DNA of 58,053 nt from Clostridia bacterium (GTDB lineage: Bacteria; Bacillota; Clostridia; UMGS1883), in contig JAFTOF010000001.1 of NCBI GenBank assembly GCA_017451505.1, positions 1-58,053 on the forward strand, read 5' to 3'. The position numbers and the translations under genes were made by a program. This document shows positions 19,265 through 57,667 of this stretch, piece by piece; positions within the stretch are counted from its first letter, which is position 1; every line of letters begins with the position of its first letter. Below the pieces are notes generated by a model that worked only from the letters and a program-made list of their open reading frames with translations, ran no database searches and was not told where the DNA came from.

Positions 19265-19324
19265 TAAAATAAGTTTTTTTATGTCAAAAAATCAGCCTAT
19301 AGATTTTTTGCCCGATTTCTAAGA

Positions 19325-19774
19325 AAAAAAGAGACATCCTTGCGGACATCTCTTCTTGTTTTGGTGAGCCATCGGAGAACAGATGCTTCGCATCTTTCTT
19401 GCTTGACGACCGCAAACTTTGTTTGCAGTACCCGTCTTCGCACCAACTTCGCTAAAAACGGTTACCAACCGTTTTCTTAACGCTCGTTGCCCTCTCAGGG
19501 TTCGAATCTCCTCTAATCTGTAAGCAAAACAAAAAGAGACATCCTTGCGGACATCTCTTCTTGTTTTGGTGAGCCATCGGAGAACAGATGCTTCGCATCT
19601 TTCTTGCTTGACGACCGCAAACTTTGTTTGCAGTACCCGTCTTCGCACCAACTTCGCTAAAAACGGTCATCAACCGTTTTCTAAACGCTCGTTGCCCTCT
19701 CAGGGTTCGAATCTCCTCTAATCTGTAGGTAAAACAAAAAAAGAGACATCCTTGCGGACATCTCTTTTTTGTTT
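19325..19774 (-). repeat. Tandem array of about 206-bp units built on the tRNA-Lys 3' tail
   Basis: Two full units (terminator hairpins start at 19331 and 19536) and the terminator part of a third (19743) repeat with a 205-207-bp period. Read on the minus strand, each unit has an inverted tRNA T-arm (GGAGATTCGAACCC), small hairpins around AAAACGG..., GCAAAC-TTT-GTTTGC and AGATGC-GAA-GCATCT, then 17 bases identical to the end of tRNA-Lys (TCTCCGATGGCTCACCA), then an AGAGATGTCC...GGATGTCTCT terminator. In the third unit the tRNA tail is the prophage attL. The one visible loop difference (GGTTACCAACC versus GGTCATCAACC) keeps the stem ends. ORFs here are spurious. Confidence 0.85.
19738..19770 (-). 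terminator. Original tRNA-Lys terminator, now outside attL
   Basis: Minus strand AGAGATGTCC, GCAA loop, GGATGTCTCT and T-run (with two G-U pairs). It directly follows the CCA end stranded at attL, so it probably ended tRNA-Lys transcription before phage insertion. The same hairpin is repeated at 19331 and 19536. Confidence 0.8.
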
Positions 19775-19820
19775 TGGTGAGCCATCGGAGATTCGAACCC
19801 CGGACAACTTGATTAAAAGT
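19775..19820 (-). other. attL: 46-bp copy of the tRNA-Lys 3' end
   Basis: Identical over 46 bases to 57592-57637. It contains the CCA end, acceptor, T-arm and variable region up to the anticodon loop of tRNA-Lys, and then diverges. It is the left boundary of the prophage. Confidence 0.95.
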
Positions 19821-19858
19821 GAATATAAAAGCCTTTAATAATACGGGATTGAAGAAAA

Positions 19859-19880
19859 ATGACAAAGACGAGACAAAATT
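19859..19880 (+). promoter_or_regulatory. Candidate arm-type integrase sites, left arm
   Basis: ATGACAAAGAC and GAGACAAAATT are 11 bases apart, in tandem, 39 bases inside attL and touching the integrase stop codon. They match the TTGACAAAGAT pair inside attR. Confidence 0.6.
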
Positions 19881-20934
19881 ACAAGAAGTTATGTGACATA
19901 TACTGATTGATTTTATCTACACTCTTAATCGTCATTTCGTCGGCGAAGTCGGTATAGATATTCATTGTGGTTCTGATGTCGGCGTGGCGAAGAAGACGCT
20001 GGGCCGTTTTAACATCTACGCCTGCTTTGTACAATAGTTTGGCATATGCGTGGCGTAGCTGATGCATATTAATGTTGTGACCGATTGCCTTACAGTATTT
20101 TTTCCATCGCTTATTGAGCTGAGTTTCCGAGAGAGGCTTCTCTTTTCCGAAGATAAAATCATCAGGGTGCATATCCTTGACCATATCGAAGAGCAGCGGT
20201 TTCAGAATTGCCAGAAGCGGCATATCATTTTCACTGCTTAAAGTTTTTGCGGTTTCTTTGACGTGTGCCTGATTGTGAATAAATTCTACTGTCTGCTTGT
20301 AGTAGATTATATTATTGTCAAAGTCTATCTGCTTTTTCTGAATGGCGGCAAGCTCGCCGCGACGGTACCCGGTACACAGAAGACACATTGCCCACATACC
20401 CCATTCTACAGATGTTGCACTTTGGGTAATGGTTTCGATTATAACATCATCGGGTGATTTTACTTTTTTCTTTGTTGCCGTGCGAGGTATTCTGAGGGCT
20501 CGACGGAAATCTGTAAGCGAAAGGTCCTGCCGCATCGCATAGGTGAGAACCATCCCGAAAACGGTTTTTGCTTTGTGAATAGCGGAATAGCTATACTTTT
20601 GTCTTGCCATATCGTCGAGCAGGGATTGTACCATCGAAGCGGATATATCCTCTATATTCTTGTCGTAAAATGCGGTGAGGTGCTTAAGTGCATGCACGTA
20701 GCCTTGGTGAGTGGAGTAACTGACGGTGTCTTCGTGGGAATCAAGCATCTGCTCGGCAAGCTTGAGAAAGTTGTGCTTCCGGGCGTAGAGGTCGCTTTGG
20801 TAAGTTAGCATCTGCTGCTGAATATCCTTGAGGGCTTTTTTATCGTTTGACTCTTTACTGTAGAATGTTTTTGACTTGCCGTCAATAACTACTGTTTGCA
20901 TTGCTCTGCCATCTTTGCGGCGTGTAATTCCCAA
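19879..20934 (-). CDS. int: Phage tyrosine-recombinase integrase
   Basis: 351 aa from a TTG start at 20934, placed about 8 bases after AAGGAGG; the GTG at 20943 overlaps that binding site and is unlikely. It catalyses recombination between attP and the tRNA-Lys attB. An N-terminal AP2-like arm-binding region is followed by a SAM-like core-binding domain (about 50-140) and the catalytic domain. Catalytic residues seen: Arg in CTGYRRGEL, HxxR in HQLRHAYA, His in LLRHADIRTT and Tyr in MNIYTDF. Located right at attL. Confidence 0.95.
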   Translation of the reverse strand: MGITRRKDGRAMQTVVIDGKSKTFYSKESNDKKALKDIQQQMLTYQSDLYARKHNFLKLAEQMLDSHEDTVSYSTHQGYVHALKHLTAFYDKNIEDISASMVQSLLDDMARQKYSYSAIHKAKTVFGMVLTYAMRQDLSLTDFRRALRIPRTATKKKVKSPDDVIIETITQSATSVEWGMWAMCLLCTGYRRGELAAIQKKQIDFDNNIIYYKQTVEFIHNQAHVKETAKTLSSENDMPLLAILKPLLFDMVKDMHPDDFIFGKEKPLSETQLNKRWKKYCKAIGHNINMHQLRHAYAKLLYKAGVDVKTAQRLLRHADIRTTMNIYTDFADEMTIKSVDKINQYMSHNFL

Positions 20935-20947
20935 TAATAACACCTCC

Positions 20948-44832: not shown

Positions 44833-44876
44833 ATAACCCGAGAGAGGCTTTTGGGATGAATGGAGGAAAAGATACC

Positions 44877-47800
44877 ATGGCAAAGAAAAAGTTTTATATG
44901 GACGGCAATGGCAATGAAATACAGGAAGAATATGACGGACGTGTAAATGGAAACAAAACCAAAGAACAGCTTATAAGAACACACAAGGCGGACACTGCAA
45001 ACAGTGCCATTAAAAACGCTGTATACAAAGAAGATTACGACGTATTAAAAACAGATTTTGAAAAAAAGAGAGACGATGCCCTCAGTGGGCTTAACGACAT
45101 ATCAATAAACCCTGCAAAGTACGGAAAAGCAGGGGCAAAGCTTGCATCGGTATATCAGAGTGATTTGGATTTTTACGAAAGTAAAATAAAAGAGGTCGAC
45201 AGTAAGTATAAGAAAGCAAGCTACAGACCAAAAAGCGAATTTGAAAAGGCTACAGCCCTTGCACGAATGAACAGTGCCGCAGGAGAGTGGGTAAATCCCA
45301 CTAAGAGAAAAACACAGGAAGAAAAGCTTATGGCGGTTGACAGTGCCGTAAAAAGCTTACAGGGACCGAGAAAGCCGACATTGGAAGATTATGCAAGGGC
45401 TATGTATGATATTGAAAAATATGCCCCTGAAACGGACGCATATTTTAGATACAACACTACACCCCATAAGTACGGCATAAGCCAGCCGTTGGCAAACAGA
45501 TATACCTCCGCAATGGATAAGTACGGAAAGATTGCCGTGGAAAGCGGTGCATCGGATATGTACCGCCCGACGGGAAGAAATATACTTGACCCGTATGAAA
45601 TGATAAATGCATACTATTATTCCCGTAAGGGTGACAAGTACATAGAGGGCATGATTCCCACAGAGCTTACACAGATGACCGAGGGAGAAACAAAGCTGTA
45701 TATGACACTTCACAACCACAGTGAAAAGGACGCAAATGATTTCCTCGCCGAGCTTCGCCCTGTCCTTGAAGAAAGAGCAACACAAAAGGAGCAGGAAGAA
45801 ATTAGGGAAAAAGTAAAAAGAGGCGGAGCAGATGCATTTGAGGAACAAGTGAAAAGTGTACTAAGGAACGTGGTTTATTCCCCCTTTGCGGCAATGGAGT
45901 CTGCTACAGAAAATATCGGTGACAAACTTTTTGACAGAGAATCCGACGGCTACAACAGCGCTATTCAACGACAGCTTTATAACGCACAGGCGGCGAGAGA
46001 TGCACTTACCGAGGGGTGGCATCCTATATTCGGAAGCATTTACAAGGGCGGTATGAGCATTTTAGATTCTACGGTAGGCTCACTGATGGGGATGGGACTT
46101 GCAGATCCAACGGCAGGTAAGATGGCAAACGGAATTCTTAAAAGTGCAGGAAGCTTAAATATGGCAAGCGGGGCAATGGCTCAGCAAATGCAGGATGCAC
46201 ATATGAGAGGGCTTTCTTCGGGTAAACAGCTTGCCGAGGGAATCACAGCAGGTGTGATGGCAGCTATCACCGAGAAAATGGGAATGGAAAGACTGTTCGG
46301 TAAAAAAACAGGCGGAATTGTGAAAAATTTCATCAAAGGTGGAGCGAGTGAAACACTGGAAGAGGGTGCGGAATGGCTTGTAAACACCGGTGCTGATTAT
46401 GCAATAGCAGGGGAAAAGAGCAATATTGCACAAAACGGCATTAAAAATTCCCTTAAGGAGCTTGGGCTTGAAGCTATAGGTGCTTTTGTTTCGGGTGGTG
46501 CAGCAAGCGGAATCGGTGGCGGTGTATCAAACACATACCATAACAACTACTTAAAAAAAGTTGGCTCACTCTATGCAGACAAATCCGATTTACTTATTGA
46601 TTTGGGCGTGGAAGCAGCGGAAAACAGTTCTCATAAGCAAATAGGAAAAGCTGTAGAGGAAGCTATTGCAAAAGGCCTTGAAAAAGACGGAAGCATGGAA
46701 AGCATTGCAAAAACTATCGGATTATTAGAGGGACGGCAAAAAGGAAGCGTTCTCTCTGATGACGATATGAGAGCGGCAAGTGCGGTGGCATCGTACATTC
46801 TTCACGGAGAATCGGAGTCTAATCTTGCGGCGGCAGGTAACAGCGGAAGTGCATATCTGATTATCGATGCGATTGCAGACAATGACAATGCGAAAAACAA
46901 CATCAAAGAGGCTTTCTCCCCCGAAAAAATTGGTGGTGAAATGCGGCAGAATGAGGCTGTGCAGTCCCTTATAGAAACAGGGCTTGAAAGCAGCAGAATG
47001 AGCAGGGCATATGCTTTGGCGAAAGAAGCAGAAAGAAACGGTGTTGAGAGCCTCAGCGACAAGGAAATCGGGAATCTGTACCTTGCAAACCTCGAACAAG
47101 TGACAAAAGAGGGAAGTGTGCAATGGAAGACTAATAATGAGTATATGAGAAGTGCGGGGAAGAACCTCGTTAAAAATCCCGATGCTATGCAAAGAGTATT
47201 GAGCCTTTCAGGTGCAGAGGCGAGGAATATATTGCAGAAAATGCAGGGTGGCAGGCAGGTAACGGCGGATGATGCAAGATTTCTTATTGAATCGGTGGCA
47301 GCGGATGCTGTGAAAAGCGGTAATTTGGTGGAAATAGTTAAGGTGATAGATGCACTTGACGGAAGAGAAGCCGACTATATCGGAAGTCATGAAGCAATTG
47401 TAACGGCAAAGTCCATACAGGCGGCAATAGAAGGAAAGGCAACACGGCTTGATTATGAAGTGATAAGAAAAAGTAACGGTGCTGTGACAGTGCTGAGTGT
47501 GGCGGAGGAAATGAGGAGCGAGAACGCCTCAACCACAAAGACAACAGGCTTGGTAATGAATGATGCGGCAATGGAGCTTGATAAGAAAACGCGTACAAGT
47601 ATACATGATTTTGCAAAGAGGACAGGCAGTACGGTTATTGTCGAGCACTTTCTTGTTAATAAAAACGGCGAAGTGATAATGGGTGAAGAAAAGGACGGAG
47701 TTATCAGAATCAATGCCGATTATGCCGATGTGGCACACTCAATTGCTGTGCACGAATTTACGCATCTGATGAAGAAAATTGCCCCGAAAGCTTATGCGAA

Positions 47801-50800
47801 GTTTAAGAATTATGTTGTTTCAAAAATGAAGAGCGAGGGTACATATGAGGGAGCGATGGCAACGCTGCGTGAAGATTATGAAGACCTAAGCGATGAGGGG
47901 TTAATTGATGAACTCTGTGCACAAACAGCAGAAAGACTTTTCCGTGATGAAGCAGAATTGACAAGCTTAATAAAAAAAGACCGCACATTGGCGGAGTGGG
48001 TAAAAGATGCGTGGTTTAAGGTGCTGGATATGTTTGGCAGAACCGATGAAAGAACACACGCACAACTTATGTGGAAAAAGTGTGTTAAAGAGGCTTCGAG
48101 GGCAAAGAGCAAAGATGTAACAACGGGTGAGGTTAAATATAAGAAAGAGTATTCTTTTAACAAACAAGTCGATGATGCTCTTGATAACAAAATTCAAAGA
48201 GGATACAGCGTATATGTCGGACGATTGCCAAAACTGCTTGAAAAATGTGGGTTAAACCCCGAGCTTCCAATGTTGATGCATCCGTCACACATAAGGGATA
48301 TAAACCACGAGAAATCACCAGATAATATACATTATCACGGAATATCCAGTGATATAATAAAACAAATCCCTGATTTGATTAAATATCCGGCAATGATATA
48401 TGATTCCATATCAGAAGACAATAGCGATAATAGCATATGTATTCTTACAACACAATGTAATGATGAAGGTGCACCGATTGTAATAGTTATCACCAATAGT
48501 GAACAAGACGGAAAATACCTTGATGTAAAAATGGAAGTCAAGAAAACAGGTGCAAGTAATCATGTTGACACAATGTATGGAAAAGATGGATTTAGCTATC
48601 ACATGGATTCGGTTATTGATAAAGATGCAGTATTATACGTCAGCAAGAACGGAATGGATAAATTGCTAAATAGAAAAAACCTCAGGTTGAATTCTGATGG
48701 CAAGCTCCGATTGCTTGCGCGATTAGACAACCTAAGGTTTGACACCATTATACATCAAAGTAGAAATGTTGTCAATACTAAGTCTATGCAAAACGATGAA
48801 AATAATTCCACTTCTTCACAAAAACGCCCGGGGGTTTCTGAAAAACTTGATGAATACATGGGGGATTTTGCCGCACGGCTTAGCGATAATGCGGAGGAAG
48901 AGATTCTTCGCGAGACTCAGAATGACAGTGCGGAAAAGGCGGACATTGAGAAACTTCGGGCGGAGAATGCGGAGCTTCGAAAGCAGATTGAAAAGGAAAG
49001 GGGAAAAGCAAAGCAGGATTACAAAAGGGTTCTTGAAAAAGCCGAAAGAATTAAATTTCGCTGGGATAAAAGTGAAATAAAGAAGCGAATCGATTCTGAC
49101 TACAACTATTTGTCAAGAATGATAGAAAATCCTACAGACACGCGGCATGTCCCGGAACATTTAAGAGCATCGGTAGCCGAGGTTTTAAAATGCTTTAATT
49201 TCGAAACTGTACAGCTTGATAGGTTAAGGGATAAGGGAAAGACCATAAACAGTCCGACAGCGGTAAGACTCGAAAAACTATCAAGCTTATATGAAAAAGT
49301 AATGGAAAAAACAAATACAATAAACAGTCCCGAACTTAACGATGAATACATAAAAAGTGAAATAAAGGAACTGCTTAACGAAATACCTGTTGATGAAACG
49401 GGTAAGCCAAAACGAATACAAGATATGGAAATACGTGAAATGGCTGCTCTTCAAAAAATTTTAGCATCAATTCACAACTCTATAACCCGATACAACAAGG
49501 CTTTTACTAATGGACTTAACAAACCTATTAGCGGATACGGAGAAGAGCTGATTGAGGAGTGCCGCGACAGAATGGAAAGAAAAAAGGGTAAACTTCATCA
49601 CGCAAGTGACGGCTCATATGAAGAATATAGCAACAAAATAATCGACGGTCTTGACAGGCTGTTGACCACAGACAATTTACGTCCGTACGATTTTGTTTAT
49701 AAAATCGGCGGAACGGTAGAAATGCTGTACGGAAAACTGAGAGATGGTTACGACAAGTACACTCTAAACTGGAAATTTGCCATAGAAAGCATCGATAAAA
49801 TTAAAGGAGAAATGGATTTTTCGGAGCTAATAGGAAAGGAACTGCCGGTAAATACTTTTAAACTTTCAAACGGTGACGAGGTATCACTTACGACCACACA
49901 AATAATGTCGCTATATGCACTCAACAAACGAAGACAGGCAAGAGAACACATATACTTCGGGGGAATTGTTCCGGGAAAGGCAGATACAGGAAAAAAGGAA
50001 GATGGGAAATTTTTAAAAAGAAAGATTGAAAGTGCAAAGCCGTATAAAGTGACGGAAACTGATATTGGGGAAATGTTAAAAATACTCACTGAGGAACAAA
50101 AGAAGTTTGTTGATGAAATTGTAGGATTTCTTTCTAACACGTGTGCGGACTGGGGCAACGAGACAAGCATGAAACTATTTGGCTATGAAAAATACGGTGA
50201 AACATATTATTTCCCAATTAAAGTAGCAGATATTGCCCTTCCGAAATCAATGGAATCTATGCCGAGGGACACGACTCTGAAACATCCACCGCAATCAAAG
50301 AAAACAAAAGAGCACGCCAGACAGCCTTTAATGGTACTCGACTTTTTTGATGTGGTAACAAACCATATTAACAGCATGGCATTGTACAACTCCATGGTAT
50401 TACCGATGCTCGATATTGACAGGGTAATGAATTACGCTGAATCTGAAACGACAAAAATCAACGGCGTGGAAGTTGAACAGATTAAAGATGGTGCAAGGTC
50501 GATGTTTCGGCAGGCGTGGGGCAGAGCTTCCGAGGAATACATAGAAGGACTTTTTAAAAGCATCAACGGGCAAAAGAATGTGGATAGTGCAGGACTCGGT
50601 GATGTTCTTCTTTCCAATTCGAAAAAGACTGCTGTTGCAGCAAGCCTTAATGTGCTTTTTCAACAGTTTGGTTCCATAACACGAAGCATGTGTTATCTTT
50701 CGCCGCGAGATCTTAAAGTAAAAGTAACAAAAGCGGATACAAAGGAAATGCTTGAAAAATGTCCGATAGCATATTGGAAAAATCTCGGATTCTATGATAC

Positions 50801-53336
50801 AGGCATGAGTATAGGTATGAAGCAAACAGTATTCGGCAAAGAGCCGATTATTGATAGGTTGACGTTAAAACCTTATGGCTGGGCAGATATGAAAACATGG
50901 ACGCGGATATATGCAGCGGTAAAAAAAGAAGTTGCGAGGGAAAACCCAACTTTGGAAGTAGGGGGTGATGCTTATTTTGAAAAAGTAACAAACAGATTTA
51001 GGGAAATTATAGACGCAACACAGGTTGTAGACACACCCTTGCACAAGACGCCAACAATGCGAAGTAAGAATTGGTTTATGAAAGTGGAAACAGTCTTTAA
51101 ATCAGAACCACTGACCACCCTTAACACTTTTCAAACCCGCGTTCTCAAAGCAGTGCGAGAAAATAACACAGCAAAAGGGATAAGTCGTGCGATAGAAGTC
51201 TATGTGTTTTCTTCGTTGGTACAATCATTACTTCGTTCTATATCCGGGCTTATGAGATTAAAACCGGAAGATGAATATGATGACGACGGAAAGAAACGTA
51301 GTAAATTTGAGGTGTGGCTTGATTTGGTAATTGACGGATTCATTGATGAGCTTAATCCGATTGAGAAGATTCCGTTTGCAGGGACGATAATGTCAATGTT
51401 TTCCGGGTACAGTAGCAGCAGAATAGAATGGGCACCACTGGAGCGACTAATACAGGCTGTTAAACAAATTTATAATAAAGAAGATGGAAGAAATGGTTTA
51501 GCGGAGCTTGTTAATGTGACAAAGAATGTGTTTAATTTAAAAGGGATACCTGCAAGCAATATTCTTAGAGAGGTGAGAGCACTTACGAGGACAATCGGAG
51601 GTCCGATTTTGGGCGAAGAATATATGGATTACCTCATCACCAAATGGGATTACAGTGTTGACAATAAGAAAAATAGACATAAATTTATGAGATTTTACGA
51701 GTACGCCGTGAAGAATAATGAATACGAGTCCGCCGCAAAAATATTCTGTGATTATTACAGTGTGACAGAAAGTCCTGAAATAATAGAGGCGTGGATGAAG
51801 GAAACTGCAAGGCTGTACAAAAAAACAGAGGACAAAACCCTGTTTTACAATGAGCCTGCTGATGAAATTAATTTCCATGACGGTAAAATCGAACTTAAAA
51901 ATGATAGATACAAAAAGTTTATATCTGAATTCAACCAGTCGTATATTAATGATCTTAATAATATGCTTAAATCAAATTATTACAAAAAGCTTTCGGATGA
52001 TGAAAAAGTAACGGCACTAAAGAAAGTTAAAAAACATTCTTTGGAAAAAACACAAATGAACTATATCCCGATAGAAGCATTAGATAACGAAAAAAGTGAA
52101 AATGTCATCAGGGAAATGGATATACTGTTTTCTAAAAGCGGGGAAGACTTAATTCCGAGCTTGCCTGCAATTACCTATTTGTCTGACGGTGTAAAAACGG
52201 AAATCATAAAAGATGATTACGAAGAACACGCAGAACAATATTACAACCTTCTTTGGAAGACTGCATATGATTTTGTAACAGACAAGGAATACAAAAAACT
52301 GACGACTGAAGAAAAAATCAAAGGTTTCAACGAGATAGCAAGCTATTCCGAAAATATTTCCCTACAGGATTTTGCAGAAAAGTTCACTGTAACTGAATGG
52401 CAGGCACAAATGGAGGACGGAGAACTAAAATACATAGACAGGGCAATCGAAATGCATGATGGTAACAACCTTGAAGCACTGGCAGAAAAAATGTACGAGG
52501 CAGGTCATAAAAAAGAATATACGGAGGAAGACTATGAAAGATATATAGAGGAGCGGTTAAGTAAAAGCAGTTTTGAGCATGACGATATTGTTGAGGCTTT
52601 ACAGAAAAAAGTACGTTCAACCGATGAGTACGACAAATACAACAGTGACTTAAGACGCAGCATAAAGGTTGACACGACAGGGCTTACAACAGATGAAAAA
52701 AACATGGTTGAAAGCGGCAGAACCGGGGCGGCAAAATATTATGCCGACAAAGAATATGTGCCGTTTGATGATGGTGTAAGGTATATGAAAGTGTATGATG
52801 AAAAGCTTTCGAACGTAATAGAAATGGATGACTATTTAATCCATCGTGCAAAAGCTAAGAAAACGGCTGCACTTTCGGATGGTAGTCCCAATTTGAAAAA
52901 CACGGAGCTTGAGGCGTATCTTGAAACTACCGGTTATCCTAAACCAGTTAAAAGTGCATTGTTTGAAGCTTTGGTACAGAATCCAAGGTCGAAAAATCCT
53001 TATGGTGTGTACAGTGCAGAGCAAGTGCAAGCGGTGGGGAAGGTTGACGGTGCTGCAGGCGGAATGACACCTCAACAGTCATCTGACGGCAACAGCTTCC
53101 CCTCGAGGGGAAGCCAAGGACAGGGAGCGAAGAGAACGACGAGAGAGCGTGAAAGCCCGTCCCTACAGAGAAAACGAAGCAATACGATTTCAAGTGTGAG
53201 TACCGGTGTAAATTATGTTGCAGAAGCCGTGGCAAAGGCAGTTCCCGACAAGTCACAGATAATGCAGATTATTGACGGCATGGATGTATCAGATGCAATG
53301 CGGAAAGCACTTTATGCGGCGTTTGGTGTGTATTAA
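44877..53336 (+). CDS. Giant polyvalent internal virion protein with HExxH and MuF-C-like domains
   Basis: 2819 aa from ATG 44877 (GGAGG 9 bases ahead). Parts seen: charged helical N-terminus (1-340); Gly/Ala-rich amphipathic region (about 380-551) that could insert in membranes; HEFTH zinc-protease-like site at 959-963; MuF-C-like domain (about 1092-1290; MLMHPSHIRDINH, HYHGISSDIIKQIPDLIKYP, VLYVSKNGMDKLL), found in injected phage effectors; coiled coil (about 1351-1395); long C-terminal region with TQVVDTPLHKTPTMRS and helices (VYVFSSLVQSLLRSISGLM). Two segments (about 1341-1350, 2739-2767) stem from in-frame repeats. It is probably injected with the DNA. Confidence 0.75.
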   Translation: MAKKKFYMDGNGNEIQEEYDGRVNGNKTKEQLIRTHKADTANSAIKNAVYKEDYDVLKTDFEKKRDDALSGLNDISINPAKYGKAGAKLASVYQSDLDFYESKIKEVDSKYKKASYRPKSEFEKATALARMNSAAGEWVNPTKRKTQEEKLMAVDSAVKSLQGPRKPTLEDYARAMYDIEKYAPETDAYFRYNTTPHKYGISQPLANRYTSAMDKYGKIAVESGASDMYRPTGRNILDPYEMINAYYYSRKGDKYIEGMIPTELTQMTEGETKLYMTLHNHSEKDANDFLAELRPVLEERATQKEQEEIREKVKRGGADAFEEQVKSVLRNVVYSPFAAMESATENIGDKLFDRESDGYNSAIQRQLYNAQAARDALTEGWHPIFGSIYKGGMSILDSTVGSLMGMGLADPTAGKMANGILKSAGSLNMASGAMAQQMQDAHMRGLSSGKQLAEGITAGVMAAITEKMGMERLFGKKTGGIVKNFIKGGASETLEEGAEWLVNTGADYAIAGEKSNIAQNGIKNSLKELGLEAIGAFVSGGAASGIGGGVSNTYHNNYLKKVGSLYADKSDLLIDLGVEAAENSSHKQIGKAVEEAIAKGLEKDGSMESIAKTIGLLEGRQKGSVLSDDDMRAASAVASYILHGESESNLAAAGNSGSAYLIIDAIADNDNAKNNIKEAFSPEKIGGEMRQNEAVQSLIETGLESSRMSRAYALAKEAERNGVESLSDKEIGNLYLANLEQVTKEGSVQWKTNNEYMRSAGKNLVKNPDAMQRVLSLSGAEARNILQKMQGGRQVTADDARFLIESVAADAVKSGNLVEIVKVIDALDGREADYIGSHEAIVTAKSIQAAIEGKATRLDYEVIRKSNGAVTVLSVAEEMRSENASTTKTTGLVMNDAAMELDKKTRTSIHDFAKRTGSTVIVEHFLVNKNGEVIMGEEKDGVIRINADYADVAHSIAVHEFTHLMKKIAPKAYAKFKNYVVSKMKSEGTYEGAMATLREDYEDLSDEGLIDELCAQTAERLFRDEAELTSLIKKDRTLAEWVKDAWFKVLDMFGRTDERTHAQLMWKKCVKEASRAKSKDVTTGEVKYKKEYSFNKQVDDALDNKIQRGYSVYVGRLPKLLEKCGLNPELPMLMHPSHIRDINHEKSPDNIHYHGISSDIIKQIPDLIKYPAMIYDSISEDNSDNSICILTTQCNDEGAPIVIVITNSEQDGKYLDVKMEVKKTGASNHVDTMYGKDGFSYHMDSVIDKDAVLYVSKNGMDKLLNRKNLRLNSDGKLRLLARLDNLRFDTIIHQSRNVVNTKSMQNDENNSTSSQKRPGVSEKLDEYMGDFAARLSDNAEEEILRETQNDSAEKADIEKLRAENAELRKQIEKERGKAKQDYKRVLEKAERIKFRWDKSEIKKRIDSDYNYLSRMIENPTDTRHVPEHLRASVAEVLKCFNFETVQLDRLRDKGKTINSPTAVRLEKLSSLYEKVMEKTNTINSPELNDEYIKSEIKELLNEIPVDETGKPKRIQDMEIREMAALQKILASIHNSITRYNKAFTNGLNKPISGYGEELIEECRDRMERKKGKLHHASDGSYEEYSNKIIDGLDRLLTTDNLRPYDFVYKIGGTVEMLYGKLRDGYDKYTLNWKFAIESIDKIKGEMDFSELIGKELPVNTFKLSNGDEVSLTTTQIMSLYALNKRRQAREHIYFGGIVPGKADTGKKEDGKFLKRKIESAKPYKVTETDIGEMLKILTEEQKKFVDEIVGFLSNTCADWGNETSMKLFGYEKYGETYYFPIKVADIALPKSMESMPRDTTLKHPPQSKKTKEHARQPLMVLDFFDVVTNHINSMALYNSMVLPMLDIDRVMNYAESETTKINGVEVEQIKDGARSMFRQAWGRASEEYIEGLFKSINGQKNVDSAGLGDVLLSNSKKTAVAASLNVLFQQFGSITRSMCYLSPRDLKVKVTKADTKEMLEKCPIAYWKNLGFYDTGMSIGMKQTVFGKEPIIDRLTLKPYGWADMKTWTRIYAAVKKEVARENPTLEVGGDAYFEKVTNRFREIIDATQVVDTPLHKTPTMRSKNWFMKVETVFKSEPLTTLNTFQTRVLKAVRENNTAKGISRAIEVYVFSSLVQSLLRSISGLMRLKPEDEYDDDGKKRSKFEVWLDLVIDGFIDELNPIEKIPFAGTIMSMFSGYSSSRIEWAPLERLIQAVKQIYNKEDGRNGLAELVNVTKNVFNLKGIPASNILREVRALTRTIGGPILGEEYMDYLITKWDYSVDNKKNRHKFMRFYEYAVKNNEYESAAKIFCDYYSVTESPEIIEAWMKETARLYKKTEDKTLFYNEPADEINFHDGKIELKNDRYKKFISEFNQSYINDLNNMLKSNYYKKLSDDEKVTALKKVKKHSLEKTQMNYIPIEALDNEKSENVIREMDILFSKSGEDLIPSLPAITYLSDGVKTEIIKDDYEEHAEQYYNLLWKTAYDFVTDKEYKKLTTEEKIKGFNEIASYSENISLQDFAEKFTVTEWQAQMEDGELKYIDRAIEMHDGNNLEALAEKMYEAGHKKEYTEEDYERYIEERLSKSSFEHDDIVEALQKKVRSTDEYDKYNSDLRRSIKVDTTGLTTDEKNMVESGRTGAAKYYADKEYVPFDDGVRYMKVYDEKLSNVIEMDDYLIHRAKAKKTAALSDGSPNLKNTELEAYLETTGYPKPVKSALFEALVQNPRSKNPYGVYSAEQVQAVGKVDGAAGGMTPQQSSDGNSFPSRGSQGQGAKRTTRERESPSLQRKRSNTISSVSTGVNYVAEAVAKAVPDKSQIMQIIDGMDVSDAMRKALYAAFGVY
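48898..48926 (+). repeat. TCATTCTGAG-family repeat absorbed in the giant gene
   Basis: GAGATTCTTCGCGAGACTCA then GAATGAC, the core of the host intergenic repeat family, translated in frame as EILRETQND. Confidence 0.6.
53093..53165 (+). repeat. Repeat-like insertion near the end of the giant gene
   Basis: CTTCCCCTCGAGGGGAAGCC palindrome and a following stretch ending GCCCGTCCCTACAG, like intergenic repeats, encode a Ser/Arg-rich low-complexity segment (SFPSRGSQGQGAKRTTRERE). Confidence 0.55.
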
Positions 53337-57591: not shown

Positions 57592-57637
57592 TGGTGAGCC
57601 ATCGGAGATTCGAACCCCGGACAACTTGATTAAAAGT
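57592..57637 (-). other. attR: 46-bp core inside tRNA-Lys
   Basis: Identical to attL (19775-19820). The phage brought this copy of the tRNA 3' part, so the gene remains whole. Confidence 0.95.
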
Positions 57638-57667
57638 CAAGTGCTCTGCCGACTGAGCTAATGGCCC
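57592..57667 (-). tRNA. tRNA-Lys(TTT)
   Basis: 76 bases with encoded CCA. Acceptor GGGCCAT/ATGGCTC (one G-U), anticodon loop CTTTTAA with TTT, T-loop TTCGAAT. Its 3' 46 bases are the phage att core. Confidence 0.95.

Follow-up and report, generated by a model that had tools for sequence, protein, structure and literature searches.

PMC4986893 describes rtT of Escherichia coli as a stable RNA that is released from tRNA transcripts and linked to amino-acid limitation, and reports rtT near tRNA-Asn and tRNA-Lys in Actinobacillus. The E. coli tyrT locus (L265) contains three annotated RtT units, located behind the tRNA in the same way as the Clostridia elements considered here. An antisense version of the tRNA-Tyr T-arm, degenerate in sequence, opens each unit (GGGGAAGGATGAGAAGCTTCG; in the third unit 18 of 21 positions agree with the complement), and the last 19 nt of tRNA-Tyr, including CCA, close it. 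Two other groups of known sequences invite comparison: the REP/REPIN and MITE repeats, which like the present element are short, dispersed, non-coding, palindromic and present in many copies per genome, and the attL/attR remnants of tRNA-integrating phages and ICEs, in which a displaced tRNA 3' end likewise flanks an insert.

Here we describe a repeat array in a stretch of 58,053 nucleotides from a Clostridia bacterium (the window). The array is probably a tandem duplicate of a Clostridia-wide, tyrT/rtT-like RNA element, in which a predicted exchange of tRNA tails would govern the fate of read-through transcripts.

Results

A tandem array next to a prophage

The array occupies positions 19321-19791 of the minus strand and consists of two tandem direct repeats, 97% identical to each other, together with a third tail and terminator stretch (Table 1). 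An earlier note on this DNA had described tandem units composed of a tRNA-Lys tail ending in CCA, a series of hairpins, an inverted T-arm and a terminator. This is confirmed, with two units of 205 nt, and its assignment of the tail nearest the prophage as attL is borne out by the alignment to tRNA-Lys, which contains one mismatch. A single unit folds with z = -5.8, none of 200 shuffled sequences being equally stable. The two ORFs crossing the array (19319-19651 and 19452-19865) are without Pfam match and exist because the array is repetitive. The neighbour on the far side of the array is a NAD kinase gene.

Table 1. Positions of the array components and of the adjoining prophage and tRNA features in the window.
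Feature	Position	Strand	Remarks
Repeat unit	19321-19525	-	205 nt
Repeat unit	19526-19730	-	205 nt
Third tail and terminator	19731-19791	-	the tRNA's own tail and terminator
tRNA-Lys terminator hairpin (terminator 1)	19741-19766	-	
Unit 1 antisense guide GAGATTCGAACCC	19703-19715	-	inverted T-arm; complement of tRNA-Lys nt 51-63
Unit 1 structured body P2-P5	19584-19702	-	P3 hairpin 19660-19680, P4 19610-19641, P5 19586-19600
Unit 1 covariance model match	19568-19719		E 8e-45
Unit 1 tail copy TCTCCGATGGCTCACCA	19567-19583	-	tRNA-Lys nt 60-76 with CCA
Terminator 3' of unit 1 tail copy	19534-19559	-	
Unit 2 antisense guide GAGATTCGAACCC	19498-19510	-	complement of tRNA-Lys nt 51-63
Unit 2 structured body	19379-19497	-	P3 hairpin 19455-19475, P4 19405-19436, P5 19381-19395
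Unit 2 covariance model match	19363-19514		E 1e-45
Unit 2 tail copy TCTCCGATGGCTCACCA	19362-19378	-	tRNA-Lys nt 60-76 with CCA
Terminator 3' of unit 2 tail copy	19329-19354	-	distal end of the array
attL	19775-19823	-	original 3' part of tRNA-Lys (nt 28-76), own tail 19775-19791 included; 48/49 identical
Intact tRNA-Lys(TTT)	57592-57667	-	last in Gly-Arg-His-Gln-Lys cluster; ARAGORN
Prophage tyrosine integrase	19879-20943	-	context, outside the element; PF00589, E 6e-23

The prophage separates the array from tRNA-Lys, the intact copy of which lies at the far end of the prophage. In a sister species (G003, locus L012) the order of tRNA-Lys and array is uninterrupted, and before prophage entry the window array would likewise have stood directly behind tRNA-Lys. 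As the prophage has cut the array off from its promoter, the window array may be silent. The prophage also contains an exceptionally long ORF of 2826 aa (44856-53336).

Evidence at the RNA level

In an alignment of 113 sequences (A2), which was fitted to the model and hence favours the model's pairs, and which comprises related sequences, 95.6% of cells are paired and 38 of 43 pairs have changed on both sides, outlining a body of five stems. Values this extreme never arose in 500 shuffles, and slid controls pair at only 37-48%; given these slid controls and the size of the effect, a covariation artefact is unlikely. Wobble cells on the tRNA strand are G.T in 184 cases and A.C in 27, the pattern to be expected of a tRNA-sense strand that functions as RNA, and on this asymmetry the antisense strand was rejected as the functional RNA.

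Terminators were found after the tRNA in 61 of 62 cases and after the tail copy in 58 of 62, compared to 6 of 62 at a position 150 nt further on and none following shuffling. Where the two terminators are unrelated in sequence (37 loci), the second has been kept in 33. Because most Clostridia copies have a strong intrinsic terminator separating the element from its tRNA, transcription of the element requires read-through. Selection on the element at the RNA level is well supported. Of the earlier proposal of a structured RNA riding on tRNA-Lys transcripts, the structured RNA on tRNA transcripts thus stands, by virtue of covariation, wobble asymmetry and second terminators, while the exclusive link to tRNA-Lys does not.

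Guide and tail copy follow the host tRNA

The correspondence between each element and its tRNA was determined for 67 distinct elements whose guide is preceded, at 36-66 nt and on the same strand, by an intact tRNA; 23 isoacceptors are represented. Compared with nt 51-63 of the tRNA to which it belongs, the guide shows complementarity at 840 of 871 positions. Permuting the tRNAs (10,000 permutations) yields 707 ± 9 matches with a maximum of 742, bearing in mind that related sequences were not down-weighted and that the permutations ignore kinship. Complementarity breaks off abruptly at nt 51, with nt 50 matching in 12%, and tapers off over nt 63-69 at the other edge.

The direct tail copy spans nt 59-76 and is perfect in 52 of the 67 elements, with identity dropping to 5% at nt 58. 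It mirrors its tRNA even where CCA is not encoded by the gene (L117, L130 and L127). Within nt 65-76, a region unpaired in the modular fold described below, only 5 mismatches in 444 positions occur at the 37 loci with two unrelated terminators. The guide base opposite R57 covaries with the tRNA in 65 of 67 elements, and forms a C-G or T-A combination with a base of the P2 loop in 66 of 67, though it is located outside P1 and P2. At one locus in a complete genome (L290, G578) the tail copy derives from a tRNA other than the upstream tRNA-Arg; this locus is possibly rearranged.

Predicted exchange of tRNA tails

When tRNA, terminator and element are folded jointly, the guide is predicted to pair with the T-arm in 61 of 61 cases. 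The 5' acceptor strand is predicted to pair with the tail copy in 60 of 61, and in no case with the tail of the tRNA itself. On average, this swapped arrangement gains 17 kcal/mol over separate (modular) folding; being a minimum-energy prediction, it takes account of neither co-transcriptional folding nor tRNA modification. If the element of a different tRNA is grafted on instead, guide:T-arm pairing falls to 29-31 of 61 and acceptor:tail copy pairing to 1-5 of 61. Much of the swapped fold follows automatically from the match between guide and T-arm and from the duplicated tail. P2 and the pair between guide base 57' and the loop are features of the modular fold only. The predicted swap accounts for the near-complete identity between nt 65-76 of the tail copy and the tRNA despite dissimilar terminators, and folding predicts that tails are swapped in read-through transcripts.

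Other body types occupy the same niche. Type B (L252, L253, L216, L255, L237 and L246) is located downstream of tRNA-Arg, -Gln and -Pro. It has a different structured body (CGACYGCCGCCGGTGGCGGATAAAGGGAGTGC...), preceded by an inverted T-arm in several copies and followed by a tRNA tail in the clearest ones; in L216 it is nested within the body type of the window, type A. Type C (L245 and L241 at tRNA-Lys, L242 at tRNA-Val) carries the antisense of nearly the whole tRNA (nt 10-76), which starts at or near the terminator T-run and is followed by a body of ~200 nt and, in L245 and L242, by a tail copy. A fourth, distinct body, flanked by an inverted T-arm and an incomplete tail copy, occurs at a tRNA-Leu (L213, G005). 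A tail swap is also predicted for type B (L253) and type C (L245 and L242).

Relation to the E. coli tyrT repeats

Model R2, built from Clostridia elements only, was run over 3 kb containing the E. coli units: the three rtT units are its best three matches, end to end, with E values of 2e-4, 3e-4 and 3e-3. Both E. coli tRNA-Tyr transcripts are furthermore predicted to swap tails, with 7 of 7 and 6 of 7 acceptor pairs formed. The Clostridia elements differ from tyrT/rtT in being associated with at least 23 isoacceptors as well as tmRNA, and in usually having an intrinsic terminator both before and after the element. The Rfam family RtT (RF00391) gave no match in 7 genomes of the genus, with a positive E. 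coli control, and none in the window region; Rfam searches at low threshold produced nothing above chance for the element. Because RF00391 misses the Clostridia elements, these are not filed under it. Common descent of the Clostridia elements and the E. coli rtT repeats is likely, judging from a remote similarity. The earlier statement that the unit matches no known element consequently holds for Rfam, but the tyrT/rtT repeats share its architecture.

Distribution among tRNA genes and genomes

Within the genome of the window, the body is also found behind tRNA-Gln(CTG) and twice behind tRNA-Leu(CAA), with remnants behind tRNA-Ser and tRNA-Val. In total the family has more than 100 copies with the same body, located behind at least 23 isoacceptors and tmRNA (L013 and L167, tmRNA being identified by its 3' sequence). 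Each of the 7 genus genomes carries the body, which also turns up in scattered families across the class. A named scan returned 79 stretches, almost all from Clostridia/Oscillospiraceae of animal guts; the few actinobacterial stretches among these are pattern matches only, with no full model match. At E < 1e-7, covariance model R1 detects the family in at least 58 of 393 sampled Clostridia genomes, a lower bound as few candidates were scored per genome. Inspection of 20 weaker matches (19 more loci and L202) generally revealed the same layout. Outside the class the element is rare, with three more genomes in a phylum sample searched with R2. It was not found in the viral contigs, phages and plasmids searched, and carriage by phage or plasmid was rejected on these grounds.

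In two species the element lies between tRNA-Lys and tRNA-Trp within one operon (L199 and L200). Sister species differ in that the element is present at a given tRNA in one and missing in the other, and it is therefore dispensable. The specificity for tRNA-Lys entertained in the earlier note is not borne out, as genome searches tie the copies to tRNA 3' ends generally; nor is the array confined to a single genome, the other possibility raised there, since other tRNAs of the same genome and many further genomes carry the element.

Origin and spread of the element

Regarding the manner of spread, we infer that the element moves or is gained and lost, because body similarity is independent of the tRNA and sister species differ at the same tRNA. 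Vertical, tRNA-bound lineages receive no support from body similarity. The tRNA-matched ends may be those of a selfish mobile element, copied from the target at insertion; this reading is compatible with tail exchange, and we consider it a serious possibility that falls somewhat short of an even chance. The conserved end TYGAACCC would anneal to the T-loop (GGGTTCRA), and the flank from nt 59 would be copied into both antisense arm and tail, perhaps via fold-back synthesis at the terminator hairpin, with the RNA fold serving spreading and not the host. Body similarity of 0.80-0.82 in all classes of comparison (same or different tRNAs and genomes) and the differences between sister species are in line with such copying, as are an antisense-arm edge that is sharp at nt 51 and fuzzy at 63-69, last units that are often truncated, and a median spacing of 12 nt between T-run and guide, which fits a lost complement of nt 64-76; in L160, the antisense spans nt 51-78 and abuts the terminator. 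A type A body at tRNA-Pro (L202, G400) has its guide on nt 36-48 of the anticodon arm, at a T-arm-like sequence (GGGTCAAG), and its tail copy correspondingly begins earlier (nt 41-76). On the other hand, no responsible enzyme was found, PF01797 transposases failing to track the element (none in G002), and viral contigs, phages and plasmids are devoid of it. Near-identical bodies at different tRNAs were not seen (best ~0.91). In addition, P2 and its loop are re-matched at almost every tRNA, for which copying alone is insufficient.

A Y1/RAYT transposase was rejected as the driver, being present in several carriers, absent from others (G002) and present in some non-carriers. Separately, short hairpin repeat families (GTGAAATA... 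and GCTAAATT...) occur near tRNA loci, downstream of L010, L013, L236 and L249, and several genomes with those repeats encode RAYT-like Y1 proteins of 250-305 aa, possibly constituting a REP/RAYT system.

Comparison with known mobile repeats and insertion remnants reveals differences. Unlike REP/REPIN and MITE repeats, the element lies 36-66 nt past a tRNA 3' end and always in one orientation, its ends match the tRNA concerned, and multi-stem RNA covariation is seen on one strand; no consistent partner transposase accompanies it. In place of the fixed terminal inverted repeats and mobilising transposase of a MITE or REPIN, we find ends that track the host tRNA and an inconsistent occurrence of PF01797. 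The MITE-like element with tRNA-derived ends proposed earlier is therefore apt as to dispersal and tRNA-independent body similarity, but not as to its ends, which are tRNA-specific, or an enzyme, none being found. Unlike attL/attR remnants, the tail copy starts at nt 59 within the T-loop, an antisense arm and a conserved RNA fold are present, and there is no integrase between the tails. The earlier note had also proposed a landing pad offering several attB-like sites, i.e. decoy attachment sites for tRNA-targeting integrases. An attB-type sequence does overlap the tail copies, and among the loci tested a single integrase gene adjoins a tail copy (L174), with an integrase-arm-like remnant in that place at L103. 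The prophage in the window, however, used the tRNA itself, with a 49-nt core of identity as opposed to 17 nt in the tail copy; the L022 and L013 arrays are likewise split from the 5' part of a tRNA or tmRNA, and the antisense arm, RNA covariation and terminators are left unexplained. This proposal is consequently not supported, and we regard it as very unlikely. Integrative elements with an apparent integrase gene directly behind a tRNA were observed at L251 and L254, the one at L174 lying behind a tail copy.

An intron-like insertion, in which the guide would act as a splint holding nt 51-58 against the tail copy's nt 59-63, such that tRNA 1-58 is joined to the tail copy and the element excised, is highly improbable. 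The guide does span the 58|59 junction exactly, and pairing of acceptor and tail copy is predicted in 60 of 61 cases. However, the tRNA is already complete with its first tail copy, the junctions lack conserved nucleotides and vary on inspection, and no intron core was recognised; searching the window region with Rfam up to E = 1 gave no intron match. Bacteria are not known to possess the tRNA splicing endonuclease. An ordinary, functionless local tandem duplication would fit the near-identity of the two units, yet can scarcely be the explanation for a family dispersed over many tRNAs and genomes with compensatory changes in most of its pairs. Integron attC sites, retron or reverse-transcriptase priming and guide RNAs were weighed on anatomy, and nothing specific emerged.

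Discussion

We propose that tail exchange in a tyrT/rtT-like element accounts for the array. The layout on the tRNA strand is tRNA, terminator, 13-nt guide (nt 51-63), ~115-nt body (P2-P5), tail copy (nt 59-76 with CCA) and terminator, and the element would be read as RNA once tRNA transcription runs past the first terminator. The resulting RNA could adopt two competing folds. In the modular fold, a normal tRNA cloverleaf would form, with the element closed on itself by P1 (guide and tail copy), P2 and the pair of guide base 57' with the P2 loop. The swapped fold would have the guide capture the T-arm along with the original tail of the tRNA, and the tail copy joined by the 5' acceptor strand, yielding a tRNA-like body with intact acceptor stem and CCA that is devoid of a T-arm. 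According to this model, the exchange most likely sets the fate of the read-through transcript, which may mean that excess tRNA is processed or removed, or that an rtT-like RNA is set free. The tandem copies would most simply have arisen by unequal recombination between the repeated tail and terminator stretches.

The architecture was already known from one E. coli locus, and is generalised here through the matched-antisense rule and the predicted tail swap. More tentatively, and with some doubt, we suggest a class of bacterial tRNA-gene companions defined by geometry as opposed to a single sequence family, in which read-through would swap the tail to give either a normal tRNA or a T-arm-free tRNA-like RNA; such a class takes in type A, two further body types described here and E. 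coli rtT. If true, these companions would constitute a structural switch on tRNA output, which could underlie the reported link between rtT RNA and amino-acid starvation.

The tyrT repeats and rtT RNA, for decades a little-understood oddity of E. coli, thereby become one case of an arrangement common in gut Clostridia. The rule of an antisense to the own T-arm together with a copy of the own tail gives a precise prediction, the tail swap, which if true would be a new mode of tRNA gene control. If the element is selfish instead, it would represent a mobile RNA element able to tailor its ends to each tRNA.
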